From: a virus
IMG/VR virus record: IMGVR_UViG_3300017717_000035
Coordinates: 1-31,538 of that record
DNA length: 31,538 nt
Direction: 5' to 3' (one strand)
Shown one piece after another: positions 2,211 to 30,917 of this stretch. A program made the translations under genes and the position numbers. Each line of letters opens with the position of its first letter. Positions within the stretch are counted from its first letter, which is position 1. The notes below the pieces were generated by a model. That model was not told where the DNA came from. It did no database searches and was given only the letters and a program-made list of their open reading frames with translations.

Positions 2211-2315
2211 ATGATAAGATTTTTAACGCATCCAACAGTTATGTTTATTACATTCACAGCACATTGTGTGTTGGCTGCTTGGGTAATACAGAAACTTGAG
2301 GGGGTGCTGCTATGA
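2211..2315 (+). CDS. Single-span membrane peptide, 34 aa
   Basis: The ATG at 2211 follows a strong CGAGGAGG site (2195-2202) at eight bases. A longer frame from 2133 overlaps the upstream gene and has no comparable signal. The peptide is mostly one hydrophobic helix (residues about 8-28, VMFITFTAHCVLAAWVI) with short charged ends. It overlaps the integrase start as ATGA, so the two are probably co-translated. An inner-membrane role is expected; which one is unknown. Confidence 0.45.
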   Translation: MIRFLTHPTVMFITFTAHCVLAAWVIQKLEGVLL

Positions 2316-3292
2316 CTATTGCACAAAGGGGTAAATCATATCAGGCTCGCATACAAGTAGGTGATCACAGGGCTAGTAAGACGTTTACTAACCATGCTGA
2401 TGCAGAGCTATGGGAAGCACAAGCTAAACATAATTTAACACGAGGACTAGCTGCACCTGTACACATTAACAACGTGACTGGAGTATCTTCGGCATGGTCG
2501 CTAGGTCGATCACTTGACGAAGCATACGAAACATTGTGGGAAGGTACTAAGAGTGAAGACCATGTGCCAAGCACCATGAGATGTTTATCTAAATGGTTTG
2601 GACACAAGACACCAGTCAGTAAGATAGACACACAGCTCATCAAAGGCTACGTGCAGATGATGAAGAAGCAAGGTAGGGCAGGTGGTACAATCAACAGACA
2701 CCTCTCTTGCTTACGTCAGGGCTTACTCATGGCAGTAGATAACAACCAGTTGTCAGAGCTGCCTAAGATACACAGGCAGAAGGAAGCTAACCATACTGTT
2801 AAGTGGTATCGTCCTGAACAGGAGAAGTTATTATTAAATACTCTCTTGGAAATGGGTGAGGACTACATACATGATGCAGCAATTGTCAGTCTTGACACAG
2901 GTATGCGAGCGAGTGAGCTGTTAAAGTTTGATCCAACACCAATACCTATCGGTAACAAGTGGGGTCTTATGATACCTGATCGAAAGAATGGCGATGACTT
3001 ACTACTACCAGTAACCGACCGTGTGTTGGAATGTGTTGAGCGTACTACGTTTGATACTCACCCAAGACAATTCAGAAAACGCTGGCAGAGGTTGCGTGAC
3101 CGTACAGGTATGCAAGATGCTATATGGAAAACATTCCGCAGCACTTGCTGTAGTAAATTAGTAATGGGTGGTATGGATATATTCAGAGTTAAAGAATGGA
3201 TGGGACATCGTAACATCCAAACAACAATGAAGTATGCTTACCTCGCACCCGAAGGATTACTAGATGGTCTTGATATCCTTCAAGCAAACTAA
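2312..3292 (+). CDS. int: Tyrosine-family site-specific integrase
   Basis: A 326-residue tyrosine recombinase, expected to recombine attP with a host attB for lysogeny. The N-terminal part (1-60) resembles an arm-binding segment and about 65-155 a SAM-like core-binding domain. The catalytic domain (about 165-320) shows Arg199 in DTGMRASELL, a beta-hairpin lysine near 225, Arg276 in KTFRSTCC, His299 in GHRNIQTT and nucleophile Tyr308 in MKYAY. The histidine usually found three residues before the second arginine is replaced by Lys273, a tolerated variation. The gene lies directly upstream of the RNA polymerase, as in integrase-bearing marine T7-like phages. I could not recognise an attachment core beside it. 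Confidence 0.93.
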   Translation: MTIAQRGKSYQARIQVGDHRASKTFTNHADAELWEAQAKHNLTRGLAAPVHINNVTGVSSAWSLGRSLDEAYETLWEGTKSEDHVPSTMRCLSKWFGHKTPVSKIDTQLIKGYVQMMKKQGRAGGTINRHLSCLRQGLLMAVDNNQLSELPKIHRQKEANHTVKWYRPEQEKLLLNTLLEMGEDYIHDAAIVSLDTGMRASELLKFDPTPIPIGNKWGLMIPDRKNGDDLLLPVTDRVLECVERTTFDTHPRQFRKRWQRLRDRTGMQDAIWKTFRSTCCSKLVMGGMDIFRVKEWMGHRNIQTTMKYAYLAPEGLLDGLDILQAN

Positions 3293-3341
3293 ATCTCGTG
3301 CCACAGTTTCATTAATCAGTGTCCCAATACAAGAGGTAGAC

Positions 3342-4124
3342 ATGACTACTATGGACAACCAAATCGAGCTTGAATATCGTATGCTGCAATCAGGCATCGA
3401 CAGATACAACAAGCAACTCGATGATATGACCACATCAAACTTACAATCTAAAACTTTACATGGGAGGACTATTATATCTGGTGTGTGCGAACCAGTTGCT
3501 GATGGCATTCGTCAGTTAGTTAAGAGTAAGACAAGCAACCGTGACATAGCAGTAAAATTATTACAGGGTCTTAACCCTGAACAAGCGGCTTACCTAGCCC
3601 TTATATCAGTAGTGGATAAGGTATCTCAGAACGTACCACTACTCAATGTAGCTCGTTTGGTGGGAGTGAACATAGAAACACAAAAGCGACTGGACGAATG
3701 GCTGAAGATCGACAGGGACACAGCTAAGAATCTTATACGCATGGCTAACCAAAAGTCTGACAAAGGTTTTGACCACAAGCGTCATGGTTTGAACCACAAG
3801 ATGAAATCAGATAACATTGACATACCTTACTGGGCAGACACAGACAGGATACACGTAGGGTTACGTCTTATAGATATTATCATTAGGGACACAGGCATCA
3901 TTAAATTACGTAGTGAGTACACTAGACGTAAGACAGTGACGTATCTACAGCCTACTGACGATACACTAGAATGGATCAAGGCGTTTAACGAAACGCATGA
4001 GTCTAACTTACCAAGGTACTCACCGTGTATCATTCCACCTAAAGATTGGGATTCATTCTTTGGTGGTGGTTACTACAGTGAACACATTAACAAGAAACCT
4101 TTTCTCAGGATACATGGCATATGA
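3342..4124 (+). CDS. T7-type RNA polymerase, N-terminal domain ORF (first half of split gene)
   Basis: A 260-residue protein starting at ATG 3342 (site AGAGGT about 3332-3337); an upstream TTG frame from 3264 overlaps the integrase and was rejected. It matches the N-terminal domain of T7 RNA polymerase, which in T7 binds the promoter and feeds the exit channel. Matches include LNPEQAAYLALISVV (T7 residues about 108-122), DRIHVGLRLIDIIIRDTG (about 208-225) and PCIIPPKDW..GGGYY (about 270-287), ending at LRIHG opposite T7 residue about 300. There it stops, and the rest of the enzyme continues in the next ORF in the -1 frame. No conserved block is lost at the break. It is either half of a two-subunit polymerase or the product of a one-base indel. 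Confidence 0.88.
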   Translation: MTTMDNQIELEYRMLQSGIDRYNKQLDDMTTSNLQSKTLHGRTIISGVCEPVADGIRQLVKSKTSNRDIAVKLLQGLNPEQAAYLALISVVDKVSQNVPLLNVARLVGVNIETQKRLDEWLKIDRDTAKNLIRMANQKSDKGFDHKRHGLNHKMKSDNIDIPYWADTDRIHVGLRLIDIIIRDTGIIKLRSEYTRRKTVTYLQPTDDTLEWIKAFNETHESNLPRYSPCIIPPKDWDSFFGGGYYSEHINKKPFLRIHGI

Positions 4125-5779
4125 AACAGCACGTAAAAGATTACATCACAGAATTTGAACAGCAAGACCTTACTGCTGAGTTTAGGTGTGTTAATGCTTT
4201 ACAGAAAACACCTTGGCGTATCAATCAGTTTGTAGCTCAGACGTTACGTGAGGCATGGGACAGTGGACAGGAGTGGGAAGGCTTACCTCCTCGTGACAGT
4301 ATACCAGTACCTCCTTACCCGTTTAGTGTTGACCCTAAAGATTTAGATGAGGAGCAGCGAGCAGAGTTTAAAGAGTTCAAGAGTAAGCGCAACAAAGTAT
4401 ACAACGAGAACGGACGTAATATGTCTAGGCGTATACAGGTAGAGCGTACCATACAGTTAGCTGAGGAATACTTAGCCCATGATAACTTCTGGTTTGTGTG
4501 GCAGTGTGACTTCAGGGGGCGTAAGTACCCAGTAGAATCGTTCCTATCACCACAGAATGCTGACTACTCTAAGGCACTACTAGAGTTTTCTAACCCTGTT
4601 ACTATGGACACTGACGAAGATGCTCAATGGTTAGCCATTCACGGTGCTAACGTGTTTGGTGTTGACAAGGTATCATTAGTTGACCGTGAGATATGGGCAT
4701 TGAGTAACACACAGAATGCCATTGACGTTTACGAAGACCCATTTGCAAACCGATGGTGGCAAGAGGCTGACAAGCCTTGGCAAGCACTAGCATGGTGCAA
4801 AGAGTGGGCAGAGTGGACGTTCGCTAAGGGGTCTGGAGAGCCGTATGAGACACGCTTACCATGCGCTAGTGATGGTTCATGTAACGGCTTACAACACCTC
4901 TCAGCGATGCTCAGGGACGCTGAAGGGGGTCGAGCAGTTAATTTGACACCAAATAGAGAGCCGCAAGACATATATGCCGATGTAGCCAACAGAGCTGCTG
5001 AATTACTGGAGAAAGAGAGCACATTGATGGCTCGACAGCTACTAGAAGTTGGTGTTTGTCGTAAGATTACTAAACGATCTGTAATGATTGTACCATATTC
5101 AGGCACAAGACACGCCTGTAGAGCATACATACAAGAGGCACTTGCTGATAAATGCAAAGGTATAGACCCTTGGGAAGGTAATTACTTTCAAGCTGCCCTG
5201 TATCTATCAGGTTTTGTATGGCAAGCAATCAGCGAGGTCATCGTATCAGCCTTTGAAGCTATGAATTATATCAAGGACATAGCCAAACTGTACGTAGATA
5301 ATGACTTGTCTTTCTATTGGAAGACCCCAACAAACATAATGGTTAGGCAGTATTATCCTAACAGTAAGAAGAAAAGAGTACAGTCTCACCTCAATGGGTC
5401 AATCGTTAGGTTGTCTTATCGGGAGGCTGAAGAAAATTCAATCGACAGTAGGAAGATGTTGTCAGCAGCTAGTCCAAATTTTGTACACTCGCTAGATGCA
5501 GCAGCTCTTACACTGACGGTAGATAAATGTTTAGACGAAGGTATCACTGACTTTGCTATGGTGCATGACTCATACGCCACACACAGTCCTAACATGCCAC
5601 GACTAAACAATGAGTTACGTGCTGCATTTGTTGCAATGTATGAGGAGAACGATGTCCTCATGGATTTATACGCTGCCGCAGTATCTGCTTTACCGAAGGA
5701 TGTGGTTGTACCACCTCCACCACAACGAGGAGACTTGGACTTGAAGGATGTTTTGAAAAGCGATTACTTTTTCGCCTAA
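4121..5779 (+). CDS. T7-type RNA polymerase, catalytic domain ORF (second half of split gene)
   Basis: A 552-residue protein starting at ATG 4121, overlapping the first half as ATGA, with AGGA at 4107-4110. It matches T7 RNA polymerase from about residue 301 to the C-terminus. Visible are PWRIN, DFRGRKYP, the metal-binding Asp251 in SDGSCNGLQH (T7 Asp537), Arg314 and Lys318 in CRKITKRSV with Tyr326 (T7 Arg627, Lys631, Tyr639), and His482-Asp483 in MVHDSY (T7 His811-Asp812). It ends LKSDYFFA, like the T7 FAFA foot. Residues about 402-445 correspond to the specificity-loop region. All catalytic residues are present, so the polymerase is probably active if both halves are supplied. It would transcribe middle and late phage genes. 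Confidence 0.92.
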   Translation: MKQHVKDYITEFEQQDLTAEFRCVNALQKTPWRINQFVAQTLREAWDSGQEWEGLPPRDSIPVPPYPFSVDPKDLDEEQRAEFKEFKSKRNKVYNENGRNMSRRIQVERTIQLAEEYLAHDNFWFVWQCDFRGRKYPVESFLSPQNADYSKALLEFSNPVTMDTDEDAQWLAIHGANVFGVDKVSLVDREIWALSNTQNAIDVYEDPFANRWWQEADKPWQALAWCKEWAEWTFAKGSGEPYETRLPCASDGSCNGLQHLSAMLRDAEGGRAVNLTPNREPQDIYADVANRAAELLEKESTLMARQLLEVGVCRKITKRSVMIVPYSGTRHACRAYIQEALADKCKGIDPWEGNYFQAALYLSGFVWQAISEVIVSAFEAMNYIKDIAKLYVDNDLSFYWKTPTNIMVRQYYPNSKKKRVQSHLNGSIVRLSYREAEENSIDSRKMLSAASPNFVHSLDAAALTLTVDKCLDEGITDFAMVHDSYATHSPNMPRLNNELRAAFVAMYEENDVLMDLYAAAVSALPKDVVVPPPPQRGDLDLKDVLKSDYFFA

Positions 5780-5799
5780 TTTCTAAACTTCCCCTTAAG
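5776..5799 (+). promoter_or_regulatory. 24-bp repeat, copy 1: candidate phage RNA polymerase promoter
   Basis: A perfect 24-base direct repeat (starts CTAATTTC, ends CCCCTTAAG) whose other copy is at 13741-13764. Flanking bases differ on both sides. It overlaps the RNA polymerase stop codon and precedes the replication operon by about 42 bases. Phage-RNAP promoters of T7-like phages sit in such places and are nearly identical to each other, so a cognate promoter is the simplest explanation. The orientation and start site are not proven, and a processing or protein-binding site is possible. Confidence 0.55.
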
Positions 5800-11584: not shown

Positions 11585-13492
11585 ATGGATTCATATCAAC
11601 AGTACATACACAAGTCACGCTACGCACGTTGGAGAGAAGATGATGGTAGACGAGAGACTTGGGCAGAAACCGTAAGACGTTACACAGACTTCTGGGTAGG
11701 GCGTGGTCAGATTGACTACGATACATCAGAGATGTTGTACAAAGCGATATATAATTTAGAAGTAATGCCCTCCATGCGCTGCTTAATGACAGCAGGTGAA
11801 GCACTTGATCGTGATAACATGGCTGGTTTTAACTGCTCATACATTGCAGTAGACCATATCAGGGTGTTCGATGAAATCTTATACGTACTCATGTGTGGTA
11901 CAGGTGTAGGCTTCTCAGTTGAACGTCAATCAGTAAACAAATTGCCAGAGGTAGCAGAGGAGTTCCATGAAACAGATACAGCAATCGTTGTCCAAGATTC
12001 TAAAATTGGCTGGGCTAAAGCTTTCCGTGAGTTGGTTAGCCTTTTGTATTCGGGTAACGTACCTTCGTGGGATATATCGAAACTACGTGCGAAGGGTGCA
12101 AGACTCAAAACTTTTGGAGGAAGGTCGTCTGGAGCTGACCCTCTTGTTGCTTTGTTTGATTTCACTGTTGCCACTTTTAAAGGTGCTGCTGGACGGAAGC
12201 TTACGAGTATAGAATGCCATGATATTGTTTGTAAAATTGCAGAGATTGTTGTTGTCGGTGGTGTCCGTAGGAGTGCGCTTATTAGTTTGTCTAACCTTAG
12301 TGATGATCGGATGCGTCATGCTAAGTCTGGTAATTGGTGGGAGACTGATACACAACGTGCGCTCGCTAACAATAGTGCAGTCTATAATGATAAGCCTGAC
12401 TTCGAGACGTTCTTAGAAGAGTGGACAGCTCTATACAAATCTAAGGCAGGTGAGCGTGGTATCTTCTCTCGCAAGGCAGCTAAGAAACAATCAGCTCGTC
12501 ATGGACGTAGAGACATTGAGCATGACTTTGGTACTAACCCATGTTCGGAAATAATCTTAAGGTCTGCACAAGTGTGTAACCTTTCCGAGATAGTAGTAAG
12601 AAGTAAGGATAGCTTTGAAGATTTAAAACGTAAGGTAGAGATTGCTACTATCTTAGGAACACTACAGTCTTCTCTAACAGACTTCCGCTATGTGCGTAAC
12701 ATCTGGAAGAAGAACACACAGGAAGAGTGTCTCCTTGGTGTGAGTATGACAGGCATCATGGATCACCCTGTTATGTCTGGCAAGGTAAGCTCTGGTACGT
12801 GGTTCGACCACCCCAATCAGCCTATCTTACCTGAGATACTAGAGAAGCTTAAAGCTGTTGCAGTAAAGACAAACAAGAAGTGGGCAGCAGATTTAGGACT
12901 TAACCAGTCTACAGCTATCACTGCTGTTAAACCAAGCGGTACTGTATCGCAGCTAGTGGATAGTGCATCAGGTATACACGCTAGGTTCTCAGACCAGTAC
13001 ATACGGACAGTACGATCTGATGGCAAAGACCCTATCTCAGCCTTCCTGAAGGACGCTGGAGTGCCTTGGGAGAAGGACGTAATGAATGAGGATAACTATG
13101 TGTTCTCGTTCCCCATAAAAGCTCCTGCTGGCTCTACGAGTGTTGACTCACTTAACGTACAGGAACAGCTAGACTTGTGGGAAATCTATCAGAACCATTG
13201 GTGTGAGCACAAACCTAGTGTGACTATTTATTACTCAGATGAGGAGTTTCTAGCAGCAGGTCAATGGCTATGGGATCGACTGGACAGTTGTTCAGGTATT
13301 AGCTTCCTGCCTCGGACTGATCATGTATACAAGCAAGCGCCCTACACAGCCATCACAGCAGAGGCTTACGAAGAAGCCCTAGCAAAGATGCCTGAGAGTA
13401 TTAACTGGGATGACTTAGGTAAGTTTGAGAAAGAAGACACCACTACAGGAACGCAGGAGTTAGCCTGTGTAGCGGGGCAGTGTGAAATATGA
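11585..13492 (+). CDS. nrdJ: Class II (adenosylcobalamin-dependent) ribonucleotide reductase
   Basis: A 635-residue monomer-type reductase that would make deoxyribonucleotides using coenzyme B12. The active site shows NPCSEI (Asn318, thiyl Cys320, Glu322) and a redox pair Cys84 (FNCSY) with Cys331 (QVCNLSE), in the arrangement of Lactobacillus RTPR (Cys119, 408, 419). The CxxxxC tail that passes reducing equivalents is Cys628/Cys633 (ACVAGQC). Loop VKPSGTVSQL (448-457) is typical. It is about 100 residues shorter than RTPR. The class II type needs no oxygen and no separate radical subunit, but the host must have B12. Such genes are frequent in marine podoviruses. The stop overlaps the next ATG as ATGA. 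Confidence 0.93.
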   Translation: MDSYQQYIHKSRYARWREDDGRRETWAETVRRYTDFWVGRGQIDYDTSEMLYKAIYNLEVMPSMRCLMTAGEALDRDNMAGFNCSYIAVDHIRVFDEILYVLMCGTGVGFSVERQSVNKLPEVAEEFHETDTAIVVQDSKIGWAKAFRELVSLLYSGNVPSWDISKLRAKGARLKTFGGRSSGADPLVALFDFTVATFKGAAGRKLTSIECHDIVCKIAEIVVVGGVRRSALISLSNLSDDRMRHAKSGNWWETDTQRALANNSAVYNDKPDFETFLEEWTALYKSKAGERGIFSRKAAKKQSARHGRRDIEHDFGTNPCSEIILRSAQVCNLSEIVVRSKDSFEDLKRKVEIATILGTLQSSLTDFRYVRNIWKKNTQEECLLGVSMTGIMDHPVMSGKVSSGTWFDHPNQPILPEILEKLKAVAVKTNKKWAADLGLNQSTAITAVKPSGTVSQLVDSASGIHARFSDQYIRTVRSDGKDPISAFLKDAGVPWEKDVMNEDNYVFSFPIKAPAGSTSVDSLNVQEQLDLWEIYQNHWCEHKPSVTIYYSDEEFLAAGQWLWDRLDSCSGISFLPRTDHVYKQAPYTAITAEAYEEALAKMPESINWDDLGKFEKEDTTTGTQELACVAGQCEI

Positions 13493-13740: not shown

Positions 13741-13764
13741 CTAATTTCTAAACTTCCCCTTAAG
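13741..13764 (+). promoter_or_regulatory. 24-bp repeat, copy 2: candidate late phage promoter
   Basis: Identical over 24 bases to 5776-5799. It lies ten bases before the first gene of the virion operon and about 100 bases after the last replication gene. A small hairpin (CCCTT 13724-13728 with AAGGG 13735-13739) sits just upstream but has no partner at copy 1. Location at the head of a major transcription unit supports a promoter for the phage polymerase. Confidence 0.55.
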
Positions 13765-28000: not shown

Positions 28001-28911
28001 AAGAGTCTGAAAGAAAGGCTGAGTCAGCAGCTAACCAAGCATTAGCTATTGCGTTTACCTCTGTACTTAGTGTCTTTAAAGACTCTGGTATGACTCAGGG
28101 TTTAGCTGACCTTGTTAAAGGTATTGCAAGAATGGTAAAAGCTGGAACTGACGAGCAAGATGGCGATGCAGAAAACGCCTTAGACGTTCTTGGGGACTTT
28201 CTCACAAAGAAAGTAATGATGCCTCTACCTAACACTCTGACTAAAGCAGCTAAAGGTGCTTTTGGTGATGATCAGTTGATTGAACCTCTAACACCACAGC
28301 AGCGTTTTATTTCTCAGTTTAACCCTAACCATCCTTCAGTACCTCGTAAGTATGACTTCTTTGGTAATCCACGCAAGATGGATACACCCGTAATGCAGCT
28401 AATACCTTGGGCTGCTTCTACAGAGGCAGACAGGAGTGGTGCAAATAAAGGTTTGTCTTATGAGCAGGAAACAGTACAGAACTTTGTAGCCCGTTTAGAG
28501 GCAGCAGGTTTTGGCGTGTTCAATAGACCAAAGAGAACAGATGAGGCGTTTAAAGATAAATACGGACTTATTGATCTTAGGACTATTTACACAACGGTAC
28601 AGGGTACTAAGGTAACTGTCATGGATGCTATACGTCTACGTGCTAGAGATGCGTATGGACAAGCATTAGCAGAAAACTTAATCAAGTACGTTGATAACCC
28701 TTACGCCCCTGTGTCAATACAAGACGCTGATGATAAAACTGGAGTTATAACCATCATTAAAGACGAAAGGCGTAAAGTCTTAGAAGTAGCTTTACTGGAT
28801 GTGATATACGCAGACCCAGCATTACTAAAGCTTGTTAAAGATAAAGAATTGCTGGAGTATCGTAGATCACAATTACCCACTTATAGAATAGAAAAAGATA
28901 GGACTAAATAA
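25066..28911 (+). CDS. Internal virion protein D, T7 gp16-like, without visible transglycosylase motif
   Basis: A 1281-residue protein in the gp16 position, close to the 1318 of T7 gp16. Its N-terminus (VDWTSLSGNNGWKAGSAELFKANHG) does not show the lytic transglycosylase pattern (catalytic Glu-Ser followed by GAxGLMQ) of T7 gp16. A Gly/Ala hydrophobic segment lies near 220-245 (GSAAVGSVFGFGAAVGFDALF). The rest is a long charged helical chain with a possible internal repeat near 685-790 (GLKGKELEEFVNAR, LNLKGEALEKFVLR and LKLKGKKLQNYIDER), three spaced copies of an LKGKxLExFV-like unit. It should form the DNA-ejection core. It overlaps the fibre start by one base. Confidence 0.87.
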   Translation: MSNELYTPFADLEGNRYEVQKEVDWTSLSGNNGWKAGSAELFKANHGSYPQDVNDPILKKYEGETFDEKMADYGLKQMAGFNYDLGEMVVDTYNITRAEQKQKEAFIYLLDQYDEVNTSWHTAKQAGWEVLSDATNWIGLATFGTGTIVSAGAKITGKAALRKALKESIEEGAEETVKKSVLRESAEKVGTVGAIEGALHAGVSDSQQQTVRMDAGAQLEYDYGQTMGSAAVGSVFGFGAAVGFDALFSKMSGKMLSKRVDEEIAKDADKIEANTKEAAEIVERRAAKDKKEQAQTPAQREQELKNQEEIMRKAEAGRNPKADPEDASTVIPKKRRYVKGVMELFKSPKVLIRAMRGDPDALEKTLVQWQKQSLNETEGKAASRTVYEALQMLNHKQKRIVDILESTPNLTKETRDSLRAELKDLDGDIIRMEGMYDHVAGWKGRYLQDIQNFLDYKRGDDGSLSPEARRKAYTEFYMKKMNRITQQFNKKMDEVLDSTSPNYNPEKAISIMRQREAFRKKMMDAIIENDPSLTPNKLRELYNKFGESLVEMSIAGRFSPQTVAVNTLFPFIKTMTYPILEQIMRHPLKREMWRRTARQYMYMFANQRASLNAMRYAFRYEQTGLTQDPSRFLMGGIKTKGHFAAFYRSINRAMSATDAYMQETAAMGDLVIKSFDSLLDQGAKKGLKGKELEEFVNARMPSEIDKGYSYLVDHNTLKPLIEKGQSLNLKGEALEKFVLRELDDITKYVPSADDLATFRLQGERLKLKGKKLQNYIDERVNNRKFRMIRTLKNKDSVEMVKDLLYKKEFSNDNAFERVAGGLESFQQKNWEARFFGNLFFRTLVRLFNESMRISPVANSLLPSFQRDLQGLNGAQKQARAQTEGAISHAILMVVLSKWAQGEIQGSTNPNYHKTMEFERTDQAEPMTIDVFGGDRSYRWADPFRIPLTTLTNTLDGIRRQQQLEREDYALEKAMGRELEESERKAESAANQALAIAFTSVLSVFKDSGMTQGLADLVKGIARMVKAGTDEQDGDAENALDVLGDFLTKKVMMPLPNTLTKAAKGAFGDDQLIEPLTPQQRFISQFNPNHPSVPRKYDFFGNPRKMDTPVMQLIPWAASTEADRSGANKGLSYEQETVQNFVARLEAAGFGVFNRPKRTDEAFKDKYGLIDLRTIYTTVQGTKVTVMDAIRLRARDAYGQALAENLIKYVDNPYAPVSIQDADDKTGVITIIKDERRKVLEVALLDVIYADPALLKLVKDKELLEYRRSQLPTYRIEKDRTK

Positions 28912-30917
28912 TGGCATACTCATATAACGACTATGTTTCTGGTACAAACAGTGACGGTACATCTTATACTGTCACCACTTCTACTGTCTTTGCATCTCCT
29001 CCTTACCTTAGCGGTAGGGGGGCTTCTGATGTAACAGTGGCAGTAGATGGAGTCATAAAAGTAAAAGACACTGACTACACAATAACAAACACTGAAGTTA
29101 AATTTTTAGTTGATAAAATCCCACCAGCAGGGGCTAAGATACGAATAAGCAGAAATTCTAGTCAGGGGCAAAGGATTACAGATTATTCTGATGCCTCGCT
29201 GCTAAACGCTGACACGATGGATGCTGACGCAAACCAGTTGTTCTTTATAGCACAGGAAGCCTTAGACACAGCTAGTGAGACTAACCTTGCGGTTGCTACG
29301 TTTTATAGCTCAGGTACTAGCGCCCCAGCGTCAGCCACAGCGGGTGACTTATTCTTTAACACCTCTACAGGATTGTTACAGATTTACACTGGAAGTGCTT
29401 GGGAGTCCATTAATAACAGAGGACACAAACAAACCTTTGCTATCTCTGGGAGCACTACAGTATTTACACCTAGTAACCCAGTAGATGCGAACACTTTAGT
29501 ATTCTTAAACGGTGTTCTACTTGTTGAAGGCTCAGGCAGTAATGGTGATTACACTACATCATCCACACAGGTAACTTTAAATGTAGCAGTTACTTCAGGT
29601 GTTGTTGAGATTATATCGTTCCCTAACGCAGCTTTTGTTGGCACAGTTAATGCTGTTGATGGTGTATTTAGCGGTAACTTAACAGCCGATACATTAAACA
29701 CTGCAACTCTGAGCACTGAATACCAACCTTTAAGTGCAAATTTCTTCACTCCTTACACTCGAATAAGAGAAACAGGTAATGGTAGTTTTAAATTAGAAGG
29801 TGAAGGTGTAGAAATAAACGTAAGTGATGGAACTGCTACTAATTTTAGCAATGGCGTTGCCTATAAAAGAGTAGTATGTACTGGTGGTAGTGCTAACGGT
29901 GTAGAGCTAAAACATGGCACAGGTGATACTAAGCTATCTACTACAGCAACAGGTATAGACGTAACAGGTACGGTAACTGCTGACGGCTTGTCTCTTGGTG
30001 ACAATGAAAAAATCCTGTTAGGTAATGCAGCAAGTCCTGACTTAGAGATTTACCATAATGGTACTGACAGCTATATCATAGAGAAAGGCACTGGCGATTT
30101 AAACATCCAATCAAATGGAGCTGATATAAAGCTGTATGATGATGCTAATAATACAAACCTAGCAGCATTTGTCACTGGTGGGGCTGCAAAACTTTACTGG
30201 GCAGGTAACAATGCAGAGGTTCGCCTAGCAACAACAGAAACAGGCATAGACGTAACAGGTACGGTAACTGCTGATGGTGTCAAGCTAGGCGATAACGACA
30301 AGCTACAGTTCGGTAATGTTACAACTCCAGATTTAGAGATATATCACGATGGCTCCAATAGCAGAATAACAGACCAAGGTACGGGCAGCCTAATTATTAC
30401 TGGAGAGGAGTTAAGTCTTCAAGCTGCTAATGGCTACCGTAGAGTTCACGCACAGAATGGGGCTTCTGGTCAGACGCTGCTATATTATGGCACAGACAGC
30501 ACATCGAAACTCGCAACCACCTCAACAGGCATAGACGTAACAGGCGATGTTGCAGCTACTACAGTAACAGTAGGTGACTCAACAGGTACAAACCTAGAGC
30601 TTTATGAAGACAGTAGCCAAAATGCAATTATCAAGCAGAGAGGTACTGGCGGCTTACAGATTTCTGGTGTTAATGGCTCATTAGCTAATGACGATTACGC
30701 ACAGTTAGTAACTTGGGATGCTGATAATGTAAATCTTAGTTGGCAAGGTGCTTCTGGAGCAGGTACTAAACTATCTACTACTGAGACAGGCATAGACGTA
30801 ACAGGCGACATCGAAGTAACCGATAACACCAAAGGCGTAATTCTTAAATCACCTAACGGCTCACGATTTAGACTTGAAGTTGCTGATGATGGCACTTTGT
30901 CTACTGAAGCGCTTTAA
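28911..30917 (+). CDS. Tail fibre protein with T7 gp17-type N-terminal domain
   Basis: A 668-residue protein. Residues 1-130 form the T7 tail-fibre virion-attachment domain (YSYNDYVSGTNSDGTSYTV, then DASLLNADTMDADANQLFFIAQEALD). After a Thr/Ser-rich linker, the region from about 330 has repeats containing LSTTxTGIDVTG (near residues 346, 443, 538 and 625) alternating with PDLEIYHNGTDSYI-like strands, a beta-helix style common in marine phage fibres. The end (GVILKSPNGSRFRLEVADDGTLSTEAL) resembles a closing cap. It should form trimeric fibres that contact the host surface; the receptor is unknown. Confidence 0.92.
   Translation: MAYSYNDYVSGTNSDGTSYTVTTSTVFASPPYLSGRGASDVTVAVDGVIKVKDTDYTITNTEVKFLVDKIPPAGAKIRISRNSSQGQRITDYSDASLLNADTMDADANQLFFIAQEALDTASETNLAVATFYSSGTSAPASATAGDLFFNTSTGLLQIYTGSAWESINNRGHKQTFAISGSTTVFTPSNPVDANTLVFLNGVLLVEGSGSNGDYTTSSTQVTLNVAVTSGVVEIISFPNAAFVGTVNAVDGVFSGNLTADTLNTATLSTEYQPLSANFFTPYTRIRETGNGSFKLEGEGVEINVSDGTATNFSNGVAYKRVVCTGGSANGVELKHGTGDTKLSTTATGIDVTGTVTADGLSLGDNEKILLGNAASPDLEIYHNGTDSYIIEKGTGDLNIQSNGADIKLYDDANNTNLAAFVTGGAAKLYWAGNNAEVRLATTETGIDVTGTVTADGVKLGDNDKLQFGNVTTPDLEIYHDGSNSRITDQGTGSLIITGEELSLQAANGYRRVHAQNGASGQTLLYYGTDSTSKLATTSTGIDVTGDVAATTVTVGDSTGTNLELYEDSSQNAIIKQRGTGGLQISGVNGSLANDDYAQLVTWDADNVNLSWQGASGAGTKLSTTETGIDVTGDIEVTDNTKGVILKSPNGSRFRLEVADDGTLSTEAL
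29950..30805 (+). repeat. Four direct DNA repeats within the tail fibre gene
   Basis: Copies start at 29950, 30241, 30526 and 30787. The first two share 34 bases with one mismatch. The last two share about 22 bases, including the common core AGACGTAACAGG. Spacing is about 291, 285 and 261 bases, all coding for TGIDVTG. Such nearly identical segments can recombine and change the fibre length. Confidence 0.8.

Follow-up and report, generated by a model that had tools for sequence, protein, structure and literature searches.

The T7-type polymerases are the textbook example of an RNA polymerase built as a single chain, and an engineered T7 RNA polymerase (RNAP) may tolerate being cut near residue 301. 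Man-made split versions of T7 RNAP work from two to four co-expressed fragments, with cuts at residues 67, 179, and 601 named in the text (PMC4299498). In nature, the RNAPII of phage N4 and the Schitoviridae (gp15 and gp16) is a heterodimer, a T7-family polymerase in two separately encoded pieces (PMC4496689), and in phages of the G7C type, other genes lie between the two N4-type RNAPII genes (PMC5418858). For T7 RNAP itself, the C-linker region has been shown as residues 251-296 and the hinge as 258-266, and the C-terminal domain has been taken as 300-883 (PMC3961267). Here, we describe a T7-type polymerase encoded by two genes in a phage genome fragment, and in its relatives, that is cut at a different place from that of N4.

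The window analyzed, the whole 31,538-nt stretch (31.5 kb) of IMG/VR virus record IMGVR_UViG_3300017717_000035, is a fragment with a T7-like order of genes. A tyrosine integrase precedes the polymerase genes, which are followed by genes for SSB, endonuclease I, helicase-primase, DNA polymerase A, exonuclease, and ribonucleotide reductase, and later by those for the portal, scaffold, capsid, tail, and internal virion proteins; with its own T7-type polymerase and this gene order, the window has the features of an Autographiviridae-like phage. The ribonucleotide reductase (635 aa; 11585-13492) matches models of the class II (B12-dependent) enzyme. A 42-nt repeat occurs four times at 29927-30805, with a spacing of 261-291 nt, within an ORF (28911-30917; 668 aa) that is probably a tail fibre, in which the repeats correspond to a repeated protein segment. 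In the gap between integrase and polymerase (3293-3341 in the window, and in relatives), a TCCCAA element, often TGTCCCAA, is conserved just 5' of the ribosome-binding site; it may belong to an attachment site or act in early control.

The ORFs, Pfam profiles, and phmmer alignments confirmed the claim, made earlier from the letters of the window alone, that a T7-type polymerase is divided between ORFs of 260 and 552 aa. Residues 7-255 of the first (N) chain align with T7 RNAP 36-297, and the second (C) chain aligns from its residue 2 with T7 298-883, such that the N chain is equivalent to the T7 N-terminal domain, hinge, and C-linker region. The catalytic residues are intact, as had been stated: the C half keeps the counterparts of T7 D421, R423, G424, R425, D537, R627, K631, Y639, H784, H811, and D812. 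That sequence-only reading was also right that the break falls between the two ORFs and, in kind, at a natural domain boundary, but its exact position, T7 300/301, did not hold; the alignment puts the cut at T7 ~297, about 30 residues past the hinge and at the end of the C-linker region. By family profiles and by catalytic residues (D537, K631, Y639, H811, D812, and DxxGR), the enzyme belongs with the T7-like (single-subunit) RNA polymerases. It is, however, not one polypeptide: it has two ORFs with conserved separate starts, and is thus a member of that family by descent, not by architecture.

Table 1. Positions of the polymerase genes and associated features in the window.
Feature	Position	Strand	Basis or remark
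Tyrosine integrase	2312-3292		Upstream of RNA polymerase genes
Ribosome-binding site of first gene, AAGAGGT	3331..3337	+	Sequence
N subunit gene (putative), 260 aa	3342..4124	+	Pfam RPOL_N 9e-16; phmmer to T7; T7 ~30-297
N subunit tail, residues 221-260	4002..4121	+	Conserved; pLDDT below 50, predicted disordered alone
SD-like AGGA for second gene, within first gene	4107..4110	+	AGG codon conservation; predicted anti-SD pairing
ATGA overlap: second-gene start and first-gene stop	4121..4124	+	ATG 4121-4123, TGA 4122-4124
Catalytic subunit gene (putative), 552 aa	4121..5779	+	Pfam RNA_pol 8e-103; phmmer; T7 ~297-883
Promoter-like element directly 3' of polymerase	5776..5799	+	Exact 24-nt repeat of 13741-13764
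Promoter-like element, second copy, 5' of structural genes	13741..13764	+	Exact 24-nt repeat

To place this junction among its relatives, which were gathered by protein and alignment searches of IMG/VR, we read the contigs holding both of its sides and counted junctions as distinct when they differed within the first 200 aa of the C half. All 66 distinct junctions are split at the same place, with the halves in separate ORFs, and no fused member was found within the split clade among them. Their C halves are ~53-86% identical to that of the window. Most (57 of 66) have a -4 overlap (ATGA, with a few GTGA), five read TGATG or TAATG, three have an 8-nt spacer, and one has a 19-nt spacer, the spacer types being those of L089, L137, L138, and L104/L022. 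The 8-nt spacer junction carries its own ribosome-binding site, and in L089 the order is TAG, then GAGG, then ATG. The junction of L104/L022 holds two near copies of ~18 nt (CGAGT[T/A]CAT[G/A]GATTATGA), and the second start lies 23 nt further on; this is apparently a natural local duplication that changed the frame relation and left both genes intact. One contig (L014, 4001-4120; the same contig as L016) has a frame break near the start of its N gene, with the C gene intact, which is either an assembly error or a truly broken copy. The check proposed earlier, a search of related phages for the same ATGA split, thus supported a naturally two-subunit polymerase; the outcome that was to speak against it, close relatives all having one continuous gene, did not appear.

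The start signals are conserved along with the split. The first-gene start (3342) and a GAGG-type ribosome-binding site are kept in most relatives, and the ATGA junction with AGGA upstream was confirmed in the window. At the SD-like site within the first gene, the Arg/Lys codon is AGG in 46 of 61 distinct junctions, versus 24% of other Arg codons. Predicted anti-SD pairing is stronger before the second ATG (median -6.1) than at internal Met codons (-1.8), with a p value of 4e-23 that is overstated, because the sequences are related and significance values ignore kinship. L089 has CGA at the SD-like codon position and its own AGGAGG spanning the stop codon.

Both halves appear to be maintained. 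Pairwise dN/dS is ~0.04-0.10 for the N gene and ~0.05-0.11 for the C gene, ratios that are rough, given synonymous sites near saturation, yet clearly low, and which indicate that both genes are under strong purifying selection; the distances of the N and C halves also correlate (r 0.89). The C chain alone has a predicted fold with a pLDDT of 88, in which residues 4-552 match T7 300-883 (Z up to 42), and residues 1-226 of the N chain model match T7 30-268 (Z ~18). Fold matches to the N model comprised T7 and mitochondrial enzymes and no N4 RNAPII, which is uninformative either way on N4.

The polymerase is accompanied by repeated elements that we infer to be promoters. An element of ~20 nt recurs ~8-10 kb downstream in 10 of the 11 genomes tested (the window and ten long relatives); in nine of the ten relatives, the post-polymerase element recurs 8.2-9.9 kb downstream, and its sequence differs per lineage. 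The second copy is weak in one of these genomes (G010; 4 mismatches), and G004 has no second copy. Shuffled windows gave zero chance matches to the window's element. Several copies finish with CTATAG and then (A/G)G or a close variant, an ending like that of T7 promoters. Within each genome, the repeated element is the one of its own lineage, as would be expected if polymerase and promoters change in step, and such recurring, lineage-specific elements suggest a working, promoter-specific enzyme. G001 and G002 (L166-L169) have an extra copy 8.2-9.2 kb upstream of the polymerase, which in G001 reads GCACTATAGGGAAG, very close to the T7 promoter. The annotated phage promoters of LUZ100 were considered as equivalents and show no resemblance to the elements described here.

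We propose that the two genes encode the two polypeptides of a working phage RNA polymerase of the T7 type, a reading to which we assign a probability of about 0.88 and within which translational coupling, assembly of the chains, docking of the tail, recognition of promoters, and activity are inferred. The first gene would supply a promoter-binding and -opening subunit, consisting of the N-terminal domain, hinge, and C-linker tail. A ribosome ending at the TGA, or one recruited by the internal AGGA, would then initiate at the ATG of the overlap and make the catalytic subunit. An ATGA is usually read as a sign of coupled translation, and such coupling is presumed here; roughly matched amounts of both subunits would result. 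The two chains would assemble with the conserved N tail, the C-linker equivalent, probably docking on the catalytic chain, much as the C-linker region of T7 lies on the catalytic body. The enzyme would transcribe from the phage's own promoters, 3' of the polymerase gene and 5' of the structural genes. This reading is favored because the split is conserved, the starts are separate, selection acts on both halves, and the promoter-like elements are repeated, and also because the distances of the halves correlate, the halves are predicted to fold as T7 parts, the catalytic residues are intact, the split members group in one clade, and N4 RNAPII offers a precedent (PMC4496689). The frame break in the N gene of L014/L016 counts against it. 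A further possibility, which we regard as speculative and rather unlikely, is that the N subunit acts as a sigma-like factor for promoter opening that is separable from the catalytic chain: it would join for initiation and might depart or be swapped at elongation, unlike the in-place refolding of T7.

Several other explanations of the split were weighed, beginning with those in which the second gene is not started on its own. An extra base in ATAT (4118-4122), introduced by sequencing or assembly, could have broken a normal single gene, and its sole point of appeal is that changing one base would restore a continuous frame. Against this, 66 distinct sequences, drawn from many separate metagenome contigs and only 53-86% identical in their C halves, share the two-gene junction; because it is conserved over such deep divergence, the error proposed in the sequence-only reading fails and can be ruled out. 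The alternative raised alongside it, a -1 shift at the TTTT run (4100-4103) upstream of the junction, likewise fails, as that run is not conserved. More generally, programmed -1 frameshifting could yield a fused, full-length chain besides or instead of the two chains, and the -1 frame is indeed open 5' of the second ATG, with the second gene sitting in that frame at most junctions. Yet no slippery heptamer lies in frame within the last 20 codons at any of the 62 distinct N-gene 3' ends, the spacer junctions are not readable by a -1 shift, L104/L022 shows a different frame relation, and a search for unusually stable RNA structure at the junction found none (z +1.2), making frameshifting very improbable. 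Since the spacer, TGATG, and TAATG junctions need a new start and slippery heptamers are lacking, the junctions indicate that the second gene is separately started, not reached by frameshifting.

Separate starts leave the question of what the two products do. A polymerase gene broken once, with halves that no longer work, would agree with the frame break in the N gene of L014/L016, but such decay is scarcely credible against dN/dS values far below 1 in both genes, intact catalytic residues, a split conserved clade-wide, and promoter-like elements repeated in each lineage. The C chain might instead be an active polymerase alone, with the N chain a loosely or temporarily bound separate factor and no stable subunit. 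Structure prediction gives the C half a good fold by itself, and the T7 N-terminal domain rotates and refolds from initiation to elongation (PMC3961267), so that an untethered chain could leave. We nevertheless consider this improbable: the conserved 40-residue N tail is predicted to be disordered alone, as expected if a partner is needed, the two halves diverge together (r 0.89), and N4 RNAPII is a heterodimer (PMC4496689).

The origin of the split was examined in a tree built from the C halves of 40 split and 18 single-chain polymerases (N4 gp16 was left out). The split members group in a single clade (SH-aLRT 100) that lies among single-chain Autographiviridae-like enzymes, with one change of state, which argues for a single origin; the exact sister of the clade is unsure, because the tree is quick and some branches are long. 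The nearest single-chain relative found, L141, is 44% identical to L089. In the phage collection, a nucleotide search gave no match, and protein searches recovered only relatives at or below about 40% identity, all of which were single-chain where inspected; a genome-contig scan gave only one relative, at 29%. The named phages found to be single-chain were LUZ100, HTVC109P, Eistla, CRP-114, BB8, and Pasto, as well as Limnohabitans phage YIMV22061, Vibrio phage 1.204.O, and T7, and no named phage or isolate with the two-gene arrangement was found in the collection searched. AP013541, a candidate split with an N match near the record end, continues as a single chain up to that end. In the open-access literature, we found no description of a two-gene arrangement with a cut at T7 ~297.

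Naturally evolved subunit pairs, together with candidate matching promoters, offer material for building split polymerases, and with the promoter-binding and catalytic parts encoded separately, the need for tethering of the mobile N-terminal domain in initiation and in the switch to elongation becomes testable. With the single-chain Autographiviridae (T7, LUZ100, Pelagibacter phages HTVC109P and Eistla, and CRP-114), the enzyme shares its family, its conserved residues, and its gene neighborhood (an integrase in several, then polymerase, SSB, and endonuclease I), but the polymerases inspected there are one ORF of 814-883 aa, with a best identity to the C chain of about 40%. With N4 RNAPII, it shares the division of a T7-family polymerase into two genes and two non-overlapping polypeptide pieces. 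The N4 cut, however, falls near T7 453, after DX2GR, and gp15 therefore carries the thumb, whereas the cut here lies ~155 T7 residues earlier, with the thumb and DX2GR both in the catalytic chain of the second gene; residues 4-404 of N4 gp16 match just residues 165-552 of the C chain. The different cuts, and the position of the split clade among single-chain Autographiviridae-like enzymes, argue against common descent with N4 RNAPII, and the split described here is most likely an independent event. The natural two-chain T7-type enzyme that we found described is of the N4 type; beside it, the comparisons made here point to a second, deeply conserved split, in which a large group of uncultured phages has a two-gene T7-type polymerase that is two-part like N4 RNAPII, with a different cut.
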